Assembly (NCBI GenBank): GCA_013816855.1
Contig: JACDDT010000009.1
Coordinates: 1-53,993 of the forward strand
Reading direction: 5' to 3'
Length of the DNA: 53,993 nt
From: Gemmatimonadaceae bacterium
GTDB taxonomy: Bacteria; Gemmatimonadota; Gemmatimonadetes; Gemmatimonadales; Gemmatimonadaceae
The position numbers and the translations under genes are program-made. This document shows positions 29,913 through 36,269 of the stretch, piece by piece. Numbering within the stretch: the first letter of the stretch is position 1; each line of letters begins with the position of its first letter. The notes beneath the pieces are model-generated. The model did no database searches. It was not told the origin of the DNA and was given only the letters and a program-made list of their open reading frames with translations.

Positions 29913-30851
29913 CTAAAGAAGCGGATCGAGTTTAAAGCGCCCGGTTTTAGAGTTCAGCGGCGCCCATAGGTCGCCTAGCTCGGCGATGCGCGCAGGTACG
30001 TTTGCAATCGTGAAATCGCCAATCTCAACGCCGCCTTCGATCTCTTCCCACGTCACTGGCGTCGACACCGTCGGTCTTTTCTGCGGGCGCACTGAATACA
30101 CTGACGCGAGTGTTTTCCCCCAGGCGTTCTGGTTGTAGTCCACAAGCACCCGGCCCTTCGGTCTTTTTGCGATTCTGTATTCCGCGGTCACGAGCTTCGG
30201 ATGCTTCTCCTCGAGATTTCTCGCAAGCGCCTTCGCAAACGTCCACACCAGCTTCTGTAGCGGTTTTCGAACGATAGGAACGTAAATATGGATCCCGCTC
30301 GCACCGGTCGTTTTCGCGAAGGTTTTCATCCCGAGCTTCCCGAGCGCTTCACCCACAATCAAAGCCACGTCGCGAACCCGGCTGAAAGGAGTGCCTTCGA
30401 CGGGATCCAGATCGAAATGCAGATAGTCCGGGCGATCGATGTCGTCGCAGCGTGAGTACCACTGGTTCATGTCCACGCAACCGAGGTTCACGAGCCAGAG
30501 GAGCGAGGCGGAGTTCTGCGCGATGGGGAAATCGATGACGCTCCCCGAGCCGTGCTCGACGCTGCAGGTGCGAATCCACTTTGGTCGCGGCGACGGAGCG
30601 CGCTTCATGAAGAAGCATTTCCCTTTCACGCCGTTCGGATAACGTTTCATCACCATCGCCCGGTCGCGCAGGTGTGGAATGAGGACTGGCGCGACGTCGG
30701 CGTAATACTGAAGCAAATCGCGCTTCGTCACGCCGAGCTCCGGCCAAAATGCCTTCTGCAAGCTGGTGAGTGTGACGGAGTGCCCGCTTACGCGAAGAGT
30801 ACACTGCGACTCGTCCGCCGGTATTTCAATTCTGGAAGTGGGGGTCGGCAT
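29913..30851 (-). CDS. LigD-type polymerase/primase domain protein (NHEJ)
   Basis: A 312-residue stand-alone LigD polymerase domain (archaeo-eukaryotic primase fold), which in bacterial non-homologous end joining fills gaps with ribonucleotides. LQKAFWPELGVTKRDLLQYY, the HFDLDP metal-binding Asp pair (about residues 145-151) and the TTGASGIHIYVP motif are clear. The ATG at 30851 gives the normal N-terminus; the longer frame to 30962 adds an unlikely leader. The ligase partner lies at 35232-36269; no Ku gene is visible. The divergent ccdA-like gene starts 127 bases away. Confidence 0.88.
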   Translation of the reverse strand: MPTPTSRIEIPADESQCTLRVSGHSVTLTSLQKAFWPELGVTKRDLLQYYADVAPVLIPHLRDRAMVMKRYPNGVKGKCFFMKRAPSPRPKWIRTCSVEHGSGSVIDFPIAQNSASLLWLVNLGCVDMNQWYSRCDDIDRPDYLHFDLDPVEGTPFSRVRDVALIVGEALGKLGMKTFAKTTGASGIHIYVPIVRKPLQKLVWTFAKALARNLEEKHPKLVTAEYRIAKRPKGRVLVDYNQNAWGKTLASVYSVRPQKRPTVSTPVTWEEIEGGVEIGDFTIANVPARIAELGDLWAPLNSKTGRFKLDPLL

Positions 30852-30977
30852 GCGCTGGCGAAAGATGCAATAAAACAGGCTTGAGCCCGCCTCCAGAAAT
30901 AGATCACGCGTTTCGTTGCTAAGAGGGATGCTAGGCAATAGCATCCCTCTTTGTAGCTCCAACGATTACCGGACGCG

Positions 30978-31685
30978 ATGGATTTTTCGAGTCTACCACA
31001 CCAGCTGGCGTTGAATCCGTTACTCGCCGTCGCGGTGCTCTACTTCGGCGGTGTATTGACAAGTCTTACACCCTGCGTCTATCCGATGATTCCGATCACC
31101 GCCGCCATCGTCGCCGGGCAGAGCGTCGGCGGGACGTCGCGGCGGAGGATTGCCGCTCTCGTCGCTGCTTATGTGGTCGGCCTCTCGGTGGTTTACAGCG
31201 CACTCGGTGTATTTGCAGGGCTCAGCGGAACGATGTTTGGCTCGGTAAGCACAAATCCGTGGCTTTACTTTCTGATGGCGAATCTGCTCATCGTCGCAGC
31301 GCTTGCGATGCTCGATGCGATTCCCATTCGTCTTCCCGCGTTTCTCAGTACCTCCGCCACAGCCGGTACCGGTGGAAGCATTCCCGGCACGTTCACGATG
31401 GGCGCCGTCTCTGGGCTTGTTGCGGCACCCTGTTCGGCTCCCGTCATGGCGGTGGTTCTTACTTGGGTGGCGACCACCAAGAGCGGAACGCTCGGTTTTA
31501 TCTATCTTCTCGCGTTTTCTCTCGGCATGTGCACTCTGCTCATGGTCATCGGAATCTTTTCGGGTGTGCTCGCACGCCTTCCGCGCGCTGGTGTATGGAT
31601 GCTTTGGATCAAACGCGGCTTCGCGGTGATCATGATCGGCGTTGCGGAGTATTATCTAATGCAGATGGGCCAGCTTCTCATTTAA
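30978..31685 (+). CDS. CcdA/DsbD-type transmembrane thiol-disulfide reductant conduit
   Basis: A 235-residue membrane protein with six to seven segments and the two membrane-embedded cysteines of the DsbD/CcdA family: Cys33 in LTSLTPCVYPMIP and Cys152 in VAAPCSAPV. Such proteins carry reducing power from cytoplasmic thioredoxin to the periplasm. The TPCVYPMIP form and the absence of soluble domains match the DsbD beta-domain alone. It is followed 15 bases later by a TlpA-like thioredoxin, its probable partner. Confidence 0.88.
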   Translation: MDFSSLPHQLALNPLLAVAVLYFGGVLTSLTPCVYPMIPITAAIVAGQSVGGTSRRRIAALVAAYVVGLSVVYSALGVFAGLSGTMFGSVSTNPWLYFLMANLLIVAALAMLDAIPIRLPAFLSTSATAGTGGSIPGTFTMGAVSGLVAAPCSAPVMAVVLTWVATTKSGTLGFIYLLAFSLGMCTLLMVIGIFSGVLARLPRAGVWMLWIKRGFAVIMIGVAEYYLMQMGQLLI

Positions 31686-31700
31686 TCCCGGTCAAAATCA

Positions 31701-32201
31701 ATGCGCGCTTCAGTTACGGCTCCGATGTTTCTCTTCGTGTTCGCGTTGTCCGCGCCGCGCATCCACGCTCAGGACATGGGGATCGACGTCGGCAAATCGC
31801 CGCCTTCGGCTATCGTGCAAAGGCTCGACGGGAAGAAGGTCGATCTTTCCAACTACATTGGAAAAGCACCTGTGCTTATCGAGTTCTGGGCGACCTGGTG
31901 CCCAAACTGCCGGGAGCTGATGCCAGCTCTTCTCGCTGCGGAAAAGAAATACTCCGGACGAGTGAAGTTTCTGGCGGTTGCCGTGAACATCAACCAATCG
32001 CCGGAGAGGGTGCGAAAGTACCTCGCAGCCCATCCGCTCCCCCACGAAACTTTATGGGACGCAGATGGGAACGCTGCTGGGGCGTTCGATGCGCCGGCTA
32101 CGTCTTACGTCGTGGTGTTGAACAAAAAGGGGATCGTGGCGTATACCGGGCTCGGCGGACGACAGAATCTCGACGCAGCCATTGCGAAAGCGTTGAAATA
32201 A
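31701..32201 (+). CDS. TlpA/ResA-like exported thioredoxin
   Basis: A 166-residue thioredoxin-fold protein with a signal peptide cleaved before Gln24 (IHA/QDM), an active site WCPNC (Cys67/Cys70) and the cis-Pro region in APATSYVVVL. It is probably a periplasmic disulfide reductase fed by the CcdA-like protein just upstream; targets could be cytochrome c apoproteins or the neighbouring peroxiredoxin. Convergent with the latter, sharing a terminator. Confidence 0.88.
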   Translation: MRASVTAPMFLFVFALSAPRIHAQDMGIDVGKSPPSAIVQRLDGKKVDLSNYIGKAPVLIEFWATWCPNCRELMPALLAAEKKYSGRVKFLAVAVNINQSPERVRKYLAAHPLPHETLWDADGNAAGAFDAPATSYVVVLNKKGIVAYTGLGGRQNLDAAIAKALK

Positions 32202-32202
32202 G

Positions 32203-32234
32203 AAGAGGCGGCGCATTAGCGCCGCCTCTTCATC
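32203..32234 (+). terminator. Bidirectional terminator between tlpA-like and peroxiredoxin genes
   Basis: A perfect 12-bp stem (32203-32214 with 32219-32230) and an ATTA loop. The minus strand is followed by TTCTTATTTC, and the plus-strand tail is weaker (CTTCAT). It sits between converging genes and would serve both. Confidence 0.8.
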
Positions 32235-32248
32235 CCAAAGAGCGGATC

Positions 32249-32857
32249 TTACTTCGTAGAGTCTGGAGGAGGCGGAGCCAGGCTATCCACTATCGCAGCC
32301 AAATCCTTGTACGACTGCGCCGACAGAACCTTGAACGGCTTCGTCACGTATCGAATCCGTCCGTCGGGACCAACGACGAAGAGCGAGCGGTTATCCTGTT
32401 TTCTGTCCGCCGCGAATGCGTCGTAGAGCTTCCCGACTTTCCCGCCGGAATCGCTCGCGAATAGGATGGGAAAATCTTCGTCATGCGCCCACGACGCCTG
32501 CGCGGTGTCAGCGTCGACGCTGATGCCGATGACTACGACCTTACGGCCGTTGTTGAAGAGCGTGGCATACTGATCACGGTACGCCTCCATTTGGATGGTT
32601 CAGCCCTTCGTCCGCGCCTGATAAAAAAAGGCGAGCACTACAGTGCTTCCGCGGTAATCGGAGAGCCGCACAGGGTTCTTCAGCCGGCCGTAGCGCGTTG
32701 CGCCGCGAAGTGAAAAATCTGGCGCCGCCATGCCGACTTGCGGGCCACTCGCGATGGGCAGCGGTGTTGGTTTGGTCGGGGTCAGCTGTGCCAGCGCGCT
32801 CGACGCGACCGTCCCCATCACGCCAATCCCAACGGCCACTGCAAGTAATCGTCTCAT
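32249..32857 (-). CDS. Exported peroxiredoxin with in-frame UGA at the peroxidatic position (probable selenoprotein)
   Basis: A 202-residue AhpC/TSA-BCP-type peroxiredoxin if the TGA at 32600-32602 (codon 86) is read as selenocysteine. The reading frame continues uninterrupted past the TGA. The TGA falls where family members carry the peroxidatic Cys: LAFFYQARTKG-(TGA)-TIQMEAYRD, compare T-x-G-C-T in BCP/AhpC proteins. No cysteine is present anywhere in the protein, so without Sec it would have no catalytic thiol. The ATG at 32857 has an upstream GGAGGG and gives a signal peptide cleaved ALA/QLT. A hairpin fitting a bacterial SECIS begins 14 bases after the TGA. A point mutation from TGC/TGT or a sequencing error is the alternative. 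If unread, it gives an 85-residue product. Confidence 0.82.
32564..32585 (-). promoter_or_regulatory. Candidate bacterial SECIS element
   Basis: Read on the minus strand, GGCGTAC pairs with GTATGCC (7 bp, one G-U) around the 8-base loop CGTGATCA. The stem starts 14 bases and the loop 21 bases after the UGA, and a G is among the first two loop bases. These values fall within the known bacterial SECIS pattern. SelB binding is inferred. Confidence 0.6.
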
Positions 32858-33008
32858 CAACCCTCCAGAACGGGCGGGAATCATCGCCTTCTATATGGAG
32901 TGTACACATCCGACGGCCTGAGAGCCAGGCGCCGGCTGAAACGCGAGCGGGTTCAAACCGTAGATACTATGCGGCTGTCCAAGCCATGACACCCAATGGA
33001 GCAAACCA

Positions 33009-33815
33009 ATGAGACGCAAAATGCGGAAGGCGGCCTTCGCCGCACCCTTCCTGTTCGGACCGGTAATGGCGAGAGCACAATCCGGCAATGACTTCTCGGC
33101 GCCGCGTAACGCTGTTGTCGACGCTTCGGGCGCGCGGAGCGTTCGCGTCGAAGCGGGGGCGGGAATACTGCGCGTCGAGGGGAAAGCTGGAATCACGCAG
33201 GTCCAGATAAAAGGAATGGCGTGGGCTTCATCGAGAGAAATCCTCAACGACATCAAGCTCGTCGTGGAGCGTCGGGGGAGTGAGATTTTCATCAAGACAG
33301 ACCTGCCAGAGAGCAATTTCATTTGGGGGAGAGGCGATTGGTCTGCGGCCCTCGATCTTACAGTCGAAGTTCCCCAAGGTCTCGATGCTTCGGTTTATGA
33401 CGGCAGTGGCGCGACCGAAATCAGGAATGTCGGAACGCTAGAGGCCACTGACGGATCGGGAGATCTCCAGGTCGATGGTGCGAAGTCCGTTCGAATAACG
33501 GATGGATCCGGCAGCCTCGTCATCAAAAACATTTCCGGCGACGTCAAGGTGCGAGACGGCTCGGGAGACATCGAGGCGCGCAATGTCGCTGGTTCGTTTA
33601 CCGTTGAGAGTGACGGTTCCGGCGGCATCTTCGCGAGCGACATCAAGGGCTCTGTCGTCGTCGAGCACGACGGCTCGGGTGAGATCAACGCTTCCCGGGT
33701 TGGGCGCGATCTCGTCGTCGAATCTAAAGGCAGCGGCGAAGTCACCTACAACGGCGTAACCGGCCGGGTGGATGTTCCAGAACGCCGGCGCAGCCGGTCC
33801 CGCAATAATTATTGA
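33009..33815 (+). CDS. Exported DUF4097-like beta-helix protein with DGSG repeats
   Basis: A 268-residue exported protein with a signal peptide cleaved before Gln24 (ARA/QSG). From about residue 130, DGSG (or KGSG) recurs every 16-20 residues seven times, with alternating hydrophobic strands between, which suggests a right-handed beta-helix like the DUF4097/DUF2807 putative adhesins. The start has GGAG eight bases upstream. It ends in a basic Arg/Ser tail. No enzymatic motif; a surface or envelope structural role is possible. Confidence 0.75.
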   Translation: MRRKMRKAAFAAPFLFGPVMARAQSGNDFSAPRNAVVDASGARSVRVEAGAGILRVEGKAGITQVQIKGMAWASSREILNDIKLVVERRGSEIFIKTDLPESNFIWGRGDWSAALDLTVEVPQGLDASVYDGSGATEIRNVGTLEATDGSGDLQVDGAKSVRITDGSGSLVIKNISGDVKVRDGSGDIEARNVAGSFTVESDGSGGIFASDIKGSVVVEHDGSGEINASRVGRDLVVESKGSGEVTYNGVTGRVDVPERRRSRSRNNY

Positions 33816-35231: not shown

Positions 35232-36269
35232 TCAGCGTTTCTTAAGCAGCTTCAGCGCGAATGATTTTTCTCCGCGCACCTGGTCGAGTGTGCACTGCTT
35301 CGGTGCCTTGTCCGGACGCCACCGGAGAAAGCGGGTGCCGTGACGGAACCGTCCGCCTGTGTAGTGATCGTACTGCACTTCGACGACGAGCTTGTTAGCG
35401 AGTGGTTTCCATTCTGCGGAGCGCTCCGTGCTCCATCTGCTCGGGCCGCCGGGCGCCTGACCGGTAAAGCCGGGGGGCTTGATCAGAGCCTCGAGTTTTG
35501 GTGTGAGCTCCTTCTTCTGCTGGGCGGTGAATCCTGAGCAAAAGCCCACGTGATGCAATAGTCCCGTGCGATCGTACAGGCCGAGGAGAATGGAGCCGAT
35601 GACGCTTCCCTTACTCGCGTACCGAAATCCGCCGATGACGCAGTCCACAGTGCGCAGCTGTTTGATCTTTACCATCCCTGCGCGCTCACCCGTCATGTAG
35701 GAGGAGTCGACTTCTTTCGCGATCACGCCGTCGAGCGCACCTCCGACATTGCCGAACCAGCGCTTCACTACTTTGAGCTCGCGCGTTGCGGGGGAAAGAA
35801 GAATGCTGTCCGATGTTGCGAGCTGCTTCGCGGCGAATTTTTCGAGAGCAGCTCTCCGCATTTCCAGCGGCTTTGAGGCGAGGAGCTGGCCGCGATCATC
35901 GACAAGCAGGTCGAAGGCGATGAACGACGCAGGTGTCTCGGCAGAGAGCTTTCTGATTCTGCTCGCCGCGGGATGGATTCGCTGAAGCAGCGCATCGAAT
36001 GACAGCGCGGTGCCTTCGGGAATCACGATCTCGCCATCGAGCACGAAACGCGCCGGCTTTAGCTGGAGAAATGCTTCGACGAGCTCCGGAAAATATCTCG
36101 CGAGCGGTTGTCCGGCTTTTGATTGAAGCTGCACCTCCGCTCCGTCGCGAAAAACGATGCAGCGAAAGCCGTCCCACTTCGGCTCATACTGCCATTGGTC
36201 GCCCTGAGGAATATCCTCGACGCTTTTGGCTTCCATCGGCATATACGGCGCACGAATGGGAAGGGTCAT
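35232..36269 (-). CDS. ATP-dependent DNA ligase, LigD ligase-domain type
   Basis: A 345-residue ATP-dependent ligase without the polymerase or nuclease domains. The adenylated lysine is Lys31 in EPKWDGFRC (motif KxDG), with motif III-like FIAFDLL, motif IV-like GALDGVIAKEVDS and motif V MVKIK, then an OB-fold with CTLDQ near the end. With the separate polymerase-domain gene at 29913-30851 it could form a split LigD system for end joining. The IF-1 gene lies just upstream on the same strand. Confidence 0.9.
   Translation of the reverse strand: MTLPIRAPYMPMEAKSVEDIPQGDQWQYEPKWDGFRCIVFRDGAEVQLQSKAGQPLARYFPELVEAFLQLKPARFVLDGEIVIPEGTALSFDALLQRIHPAASRIRKLSAETPASFIAFDLLVDDRGQLLASKPLEMRRAALEKFAAKQLATSDSILLSPATRELKVVKRWFGNVGGALDGVIAKEVDSSYMTGERAGMVKIKQLRTVDCVIGGFRYASKGSVIGSILLGLYDRTGLLHHVGFCSGFTAQQKKELTPKLEALIKPPGFTGQAPGGPSRWSTERSAEWKPLANKLVVEVQYDHYTGGRFRHGTRFLRWRPDKAPKQCTLDQVRGEKSFALKLLKKR

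Follow-up and report, generated by a model that had tools for sequence, protein, structure and literature searches.

Within a 53,993-nucleotide stretch of the genome of a Gemmatimonadaceae bacterium (GCA_013816855.1, contig JACDDT010000009.1), here called the window, a peroxiredoxin gene was identified on the minus strand. Its frame carries a single in-frame TGA, located exactly where the peroxidatic Cys would be expected, and is otherwise open as far as 32249 (Table 1). An alternative start at 32884 would give a 211-residue reading in which the catalytic site is numbered 95, while the ATG at 32857 is preceded by a GGAGG at 32866..32862. The Pfam AhpC-TSA profile (PF00578) matches with 90.5 bits (cut-off 26), and the match runs through the TGA, spanning residues 50-180 of the 211-residue reading. 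A sequence-only reading of the same DNA had described this frame as a likely exported, Cys-free selenoprotein that ordinary annotation would split. The frame and its TGA were confirmed; the strand, the SECIS hairpin, the occurrence across the phylum, the Cys forms in genomes lacking selA and the neighbouring CcdA-TlpA genes, all described below, were not part of that reading. The translated protein contains no Cys, and mechanical ORF calling (table 11) breaks the gene into two pieces of 94 and 113 aa.

Table 1 Features of the peroxiredoxin locus in the window
Feature	Position	Strand	Remarks
Predicted Sec-containing peroxiredoxin gene	32249..32857	minus	ATG at 32857, TAA at 32251..32249; 202 residues, Sec at residue 86
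In-frame TGA, read as selenocysteine	32600..32602	minus	position of the peroxidatic Cys
Putative signal peptide MRRLLAVAVGIGVMGTVASSALA	32789..32857	minus	hydrophobic stretch ending in ALA; expected cleavage before the following Gln
SECIS hairpin	32564..32585	minus	7-bp stem, 8-nt loop CGUGAUCA (32578..32571), loop start 21 nt after UGA
Terminator-like hairpin	32202..32231	minus	stem of 13 pairs with a 4-nt loop, followed by TTATTT; lies past the end of the peroxiredoxin gene, between convergent genes
TlpA/ResA-like thioredoxin (WCPNC) with signal-peptide-like start	31701..32201	plus	convergent with the peroxiredoxin gene; proposed reductant
CcdA/DsbD-type membrane electron carrier	30978..31685	plus	Pfam DsbD_TM, 156 bits; proposed electron source for TlpA

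The N-terminus resembles a signal peptide, as the earlier reading had suggested, a call made by inspection together with a simple script scoring hydrophobicity and A-x-A motifs rather than with a dedicated predictor. All 45 proteins aligned have Gln directly behind the presumed cleavage site. By the same type of script, signal-peptide-like N-termini were found in 110 of 114 Sec forms and in all 47 Cys forms of a set of 161 distinct full-length proteins, for which starts were picked near a set distance and the reading was ended at the next stop.

Downstream, the peroxiredoxin gene faces a TlpA-like gene across a terminator-like hairpin; two such sites in 1.5 kb compare with a mean of 1.4 in shuffled sequence, so that their count alone is no evidence. 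The neighbour on the other side (33009-33815, plus strand) shows a weak DUF2807 match of 19.9 bits (cut-off 24.2), and a protein similar to its product is encoded near the gene in several close relatives, for example at loci L025 and L041. Further, two separate minus-strand genes (29913-30962 and 35232-36269), situated about 4 kb from each other and flanking the redox cluster on both sides, code for a LigD primase-polymerase domain and an ATP-dependent DNA ligase, as judged by Pfam.

TGA and Cys codons exchange at the catalytic position

Homologues at an E-value of 1e-20 were detected in 313 of 395 genomes of the phylum. The sequence-only reading had proposed comparing related proteins at the catalytic codon, and the outcome is clear-cut: among 184 aligned hits the codon is TGA in 131, TGC in 50 and TGT in 3, and no other codon occurs. 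These hits correspond to 170 distinct segments (118 Sec, 52 Cys) from loci of the same phylum, including the window's own locus and some duplicate records. A scan of public genomes with exact 8-residue patterns returned ten relatives. Seven of these are close, come from metagenome-assembled genomes (MAGs) of Gemmatimonadota, named as Gemmatimonadetes or Gemmatimonadaceae, and without exception carry TGA; the three distant ones have Cys in the matching stretch (as GCT in a Bacillota member and as VCPTE in Geobacter and Nitrospina).

A sequencing or assembly error of a TGC or TGT codon might be considered, given that the window stems from a draft assembly of 170 contigs. The same TGA recurs in the seven public MAG records and in 118 distinct segments, and its presence in independent genomes excludes a base error for practical purposes. 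The second alternative is that TGA acts as an ordinary stop, leaving either a decaying pseudogene or a truncated export leader followed by a separately started C-terminal piece. The two mechanically called ORFs and an ATG at codon +4 past the TGA are compatible with such an arrangement. It is opposed by the intact downstream frame behind the same TGA in all 118 distinct segments, by the restriction of the catalytic site to TGA or Cys codons and, as detailed below, by frozen synonymous sites 3' of the TGA and by the tracking of TGA copies with selA. Overall, termination at this codon appears very improbable, and translation through the TGA is the reading that we follow here.

At the level of genomes, codon status was assigned for 220 of the 313 matched genomes, 171 of them with a TGA copy and 49 with Cys copies only; the other 93 were left out. 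The codon was read directly from the DNA in 157 of the 220 (122 TGA, 35 Cys-only), none of which contradicts the list, and was taken for the remaining 63 from the search tool's column of internal stops, which proved wrong in two fetched rows (one each in G202 and G168) where the site is TGC. Sec and Cys copies coexist in eleven genomes, nine of which belong to a single genus (g8). At loci L140, L141, L142, L153, L154, L156, L160, L164, L182 and L185, a Sec and a Cys peroxiredoxin gene are neighbours in one genome, which allows the two forms to be compared directly. On a quick protein tree, built without a mixture model, 10 changes between Sec and Cys are needed, 4 of which are forced by well-supported branches; no direction of change was read from this tree.

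A SECIS hairpin accompanies TGA genes

According to the portions of PMC13188914 that set out the bacterial SECIS (bSECIS) rules, the element has a loop of 3-9 nt, a stem of 4-16 bp, a spacing of 16-37 nt and a minimum free energy of at most -7.5, and its loop starts with G followed by G or U. The hairpin found 3' of the TGA in the window agrees with this consensus, with its 8-nt loop, 7-bp stem, CGU and 21-nt spacing. When loop motif, core stem and energy are taken together, 117 of 118 distinct Sec genes pass and none of the 52 Cys genes does.

Synonymous sites in codons +6 to +11 (GCG TAC CGT GAT CAG TAC) are nearly frozen across the 118 distinct Sec genes. They are not frozen in the 52 Cys genes, which prefer CGC and GAC there. 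The outermost pair of the stem, between the third positions of codons +5 and +12, covaries (GC in 52, UA in 17, CG in 12 and AU in 1 sequence) and is unpaired in 10 of 92 sequences. The covariation score exceeds that of all 500 shuffles, with two of five measures being no better than shuffles, and covariation is limited to this one of the 7 pairs. Four of the other six pairs never vary and hence speak neither for nor against the fold.

Fold energy alone is weak evidence for a SECIS. The stability of the window hairpin is unremarkable when compared with shuffled sequences (z-scores of -0.66 and -0.76; -2.24 for an 81-nt fold), and synonymous recodings fold equally well in 13.5% of cases for Sec genes versus 38% for Cys genes. 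The 81-nt fold computed for the window alone also has an outer helix around the UGA; this helix was rejected, as other family members do not preserve several of its pairs.

A covariance model was built from 92 Sec gene sequences. Searched against the window's genome with strict filters and E-values up to 1, it returned a single match, namely this gene (E 9.4e-16); a search of the window with Rfam gave no match. Those Cys genes that the model matches score between 12 and 54 bits, compared with about 74 to 86 bits for Sec genes. The idea that some Cys genes retain SECIS relics was abandoned, since shared protein sequence would by itself give such values. Within the adjacent Sec and Cys gene pairs mentioned above, the TGA copies score 77-85 bits and the Cys copies 15-41 bits.

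Selenocysteine machinery

The window's genome is a draft MAG of 2.47 Mb in 170 contigs with an estimated completeness of 94.9%. It contains a tRNA-Sec with a UCA anticodon (71.1 bits, cut-off 47) located about 90 nt after selD, and matches to selA (541 bits) and selD (361 bits). The sequence-only reading had named selA, selB, selC and selD as the genes to look for; selA, selD and the tRNA are present, and selB was not found in the window's assembly, where the best matches are EF-Tu and frames whose sizes correspond to IF-2 and LepA. Of 61 genomes searched for selB, the window's own among them, 44 have a match above the cut-off. In nine of ten selB loci examined the gene order is recO, selB, a gene for a protein with a sorting-type tail, and clpB; the tenth locus ends at a contig end. 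In the window's genome, recO gave no match either, and a search with the ClpB N-terminus found only a Clp protein of 42% identity, as compared with 81-92% in three relatives of the same genus. The joint absence of selB, recO and clpB suggests an assembly gap, and a missing block of sequence is likelier than a loss of selB.

TGA copies track selA, which was matched in 283 of the 395 genomes (over the cut-off in 280). Among genomes whose codon was read from DNA, those with a TGA copy have selA in 118 of 122 cases and Cys-only genomes in 7 of 35 (Fisher p 2.5e-20); including rows typed by the stop column, the counts are 154 of 171 and 13 of 49 (p 9e-18), both p-values being overstated as related genomes are not independent. 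No selA match was obtained for four of the 122 TGA genomes typed from DNA or, with the stop-column rows included, for 17 of 171; incomplete assemblies are one possible reason. Conversely, selA occurs alongside only Cys copies of the peroxiredoxin in G006, G008, G016, G080, G081, G306 and G374, where the codon was read, and in G049, G091, G195, G206, G284 and G330, which were typed by the stop column. These genomes may encode other selenoproteins.

One more explanation concerns the genetic code: the frame would also be open if UGA were read as another amino acid, for example Trp or Cys, under an altered code. In the window TGA otherwise behaves as a normal stop and ends 9 of 26 non-overlapping ORFs of at least 220 aa (the 26 include a spurious frame that overlies ccdA/tlpA). 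Together with the presence of tRNA-Sec, selA and selD and with a SECIS specific to TGA genes, this makes a reassigned codon extremely improbable. From the exchange of TGA and Cys codons, the SECIS and the presence of most of the selenocysteine machinery, all of which support the selenoprotein assignment made by the earlier reading, we infer that selenocysteine is inserted at this UGA.

Active site and fold

In the set of 161 full-length proteins, 102 of the 114 Sec forms lack Cys altogether, and a single Cys is present in 39 of the 47 Cys forms. Judged by these sequences, the enzyme is of a 1-Sec/1-Cys design that lacks a resolving residue. An AlphaFold2 model of the window protein (mean pLDDT 88, about 97 in the domain) adopts a peroxiredoxin fold and places the Sec site where the helix of residues 95-104 begins. 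Foldseek placed Prx1-type chains first and gave a target TM-score of 0.83 for 3hjp, and the best sequence-profile matches in the PDB include proteins of the PrxQ/BCP and AhpE types (2ywn, 3hjp and 2cx3; Rv2238c).

R166 is invariant in 45 aligned sequences, and T92, located at -3 relative to the catalytic site, is conserved in at least 90% of them. A Thr at -3 and a distant Arg are conserved residues of the peroxiredoxin active site. The Pro at -7 (PxxxTxxC/U) is replaced by Tyr in the window gene. This Pro is present in all 52 Cys segments versus 31 of 118 Sec segments, the other 87 having mostly Phe or Tyr. The PF00578 family match is independent of this residue.

A convergent CcdA-TlpA pair as the proposed electron source

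Of 115 Sec loci, 53 have a convergent TlpA gene no more than 2 kb away, 52 of them together with CcdA, and this arrangement extends over 18 of 46 genera and 6 families; among 51 Cys loci it was not found once. Loci covered 1.2 to 2.5 kb downstream, so that more distant TlpA copies would escape these counts. Most of the Cys loci (44 of 51) belong to one family, f1, and within f1 alone the counts are 17 of 64 Sec loci versus 0 of 44 Cys loci. TlpA and CcdA genes are nearby, in another arrangement, at Cys loci L202 and L203. With the selenoprotein model TsoB (NF045694), the CcdA-like carrier of the window scores 165 bits (cut-off 805), the match falling in the DsbD part of that model.

The following mechanism can be proposed. 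The UGA would be decoded as selenocysteine with the help of the SECIS hairpin, tRNA-Sec, SelA, SelD and SelB, the last being absent from the MAG. Once the protein has been exported, its peroxidatic selenolate would reduce peroxide and thereby be converted to a selenenic acid. As the protein has no other Cys, an outside thiol must reduce the selenenic acid, and the most likely reductant would be the TlpA-like thioredoxin encoded next door, which the neighbouring CcdA could recharge across the membrane. By analogy with the ScsB-TlpA-PprX system of Caulobacter, CcdA and TlpA probably supply electrons to the peroxiredoxin.

The enzyme might instead depend on a different periplasmic or small-molecule thiol, with the CcdA-TlpA neighbourhood merely inherited. 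This would fit the 62 of 115 Sec loci without a convergent TlpA within 2 kb as well as the convergent orientation of the peroxiredoxin and TlpA genes, which do not form one operon. The spread of the arrangement over genera and families, set against its absence from Cys loci, speaks against this reading, and the contrast persists inside f1, although related loci are not independent. A reductant other than TlpA is a serious contender, albeit the less probable one. Taken as a whole, the locus very probably encodes an exported 1-Sec peroxiredoxin whose UGA is read as Sec via the SECIS, with the adjacent TlpA and CcdA as the most likely source of reducing power, and its role is likely that of a periplasmic 1-Sec peroxidase.

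Relation to known peroxiredoxin systems

In PrxQ/BCP proteins, a resolving Cys is located five residues after the peroxidatic residue. The window protein has Glu at this +5 position and reaches 47.1 bits with PRK09437 (cut-off 140); it differs from both PrxQ/BCP and AhpE types by the lack of a resolving Cys and by Sec at the peroxidatic position. The NCBIfam equivalog cut-offs are not reached by the window protein, including that of the PrxU equivalog NF040737 (60 bits, cut-off 270). PrxU is a selenocysteine peroxiredoxin from Eubacterium acidaminophilum, reportedly described by Sohling in 2001. As far as the accessible descriptions go, PrxU and the window protein share membership of the AhpC/TSA family, Sec at the peroxidatic position and a TxxU motif. 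Unlike PrxU, the window protein combines a signal-peptide-like start with a complete lack of Cys, and the active-site Pro is frequently missing from its family (in 87 of 118 Sec segments).

Sec peroxiredoxins with a TxxU motif have been known since 2001 and are tabulated in surveys, in the parts available to us (PMC13188914, PMC9312934). Such survey passages list them in 78 organisms (PMC5029168) and as 253 sequences (PMC2398784), and the window protein appears to belong to this broad class of bacterial and marine selenoproteins. No mention of export or of a CcdA-TlpA link was found in the Sec peroxiredoxin passages of these two surveys (PMC5029168, PMC2398784). The term "gemmatimon" is absent from the main texts of PMC5029168, PMC13188914 and PMC9312934. 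Literature searches combining selenoprotein or selenocysteine with Gemmatimonad returned no description of the enzyme, judged by titles and the first lines of abstracts.

The closest parallel for the proposed electron path is ScsB-TlpA-PprX, a periplasmic peroxide pathway of Caulobacter (Cho 2012, as summarized in a passage of PMC5403849). As outlined there, it resembles the window locus in joining a membrane carrier, TlpA and an envelope peroxiredoxin in one proposed chain. It differs in that the carrier of the window is of the short CcdA type and the catalytic residue is Sec, and the flow of electrons proposed here is deduced from genes. The likeness concerns the components; the adjacency of their genes is stated here for the Gemmatimonadota loci. 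Compared with known Sec peroxiredoxins, the features that appear to be new are the predicted export, the lack of a resolving Cys, the frequent loss of the active-site Pro and the linked CcdA-TlpA genes.

Implications for selenocysteine use in Gemmatimonadota

We tentatively propose, with slightly less than even confidence, that CcdA, TlpA and the exported 1-Sec peroxiredoxin form a periplasmic selenium-based peroxide shield in Gemmatimonadota, and that this enzyme is the main client sustaining the Sec code in the phylum. Reversion to Cys would then usually be followed by loss of the machinery, and Sec would have relaxed the active-site Pro to Phe or Tyr. Since the window gene is split by mechanical ORF calling, genes of this kind are easily missed. 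The findings suggest that selenocysteine is in wide use in a phylum not named in the prokaryotic selenoproteome papers searched by term. With Sec and Cys versions of a single enzyme, in some genomes even as two coexisting copies, they further provide a natural series that bears on why Sec is kept or lost.
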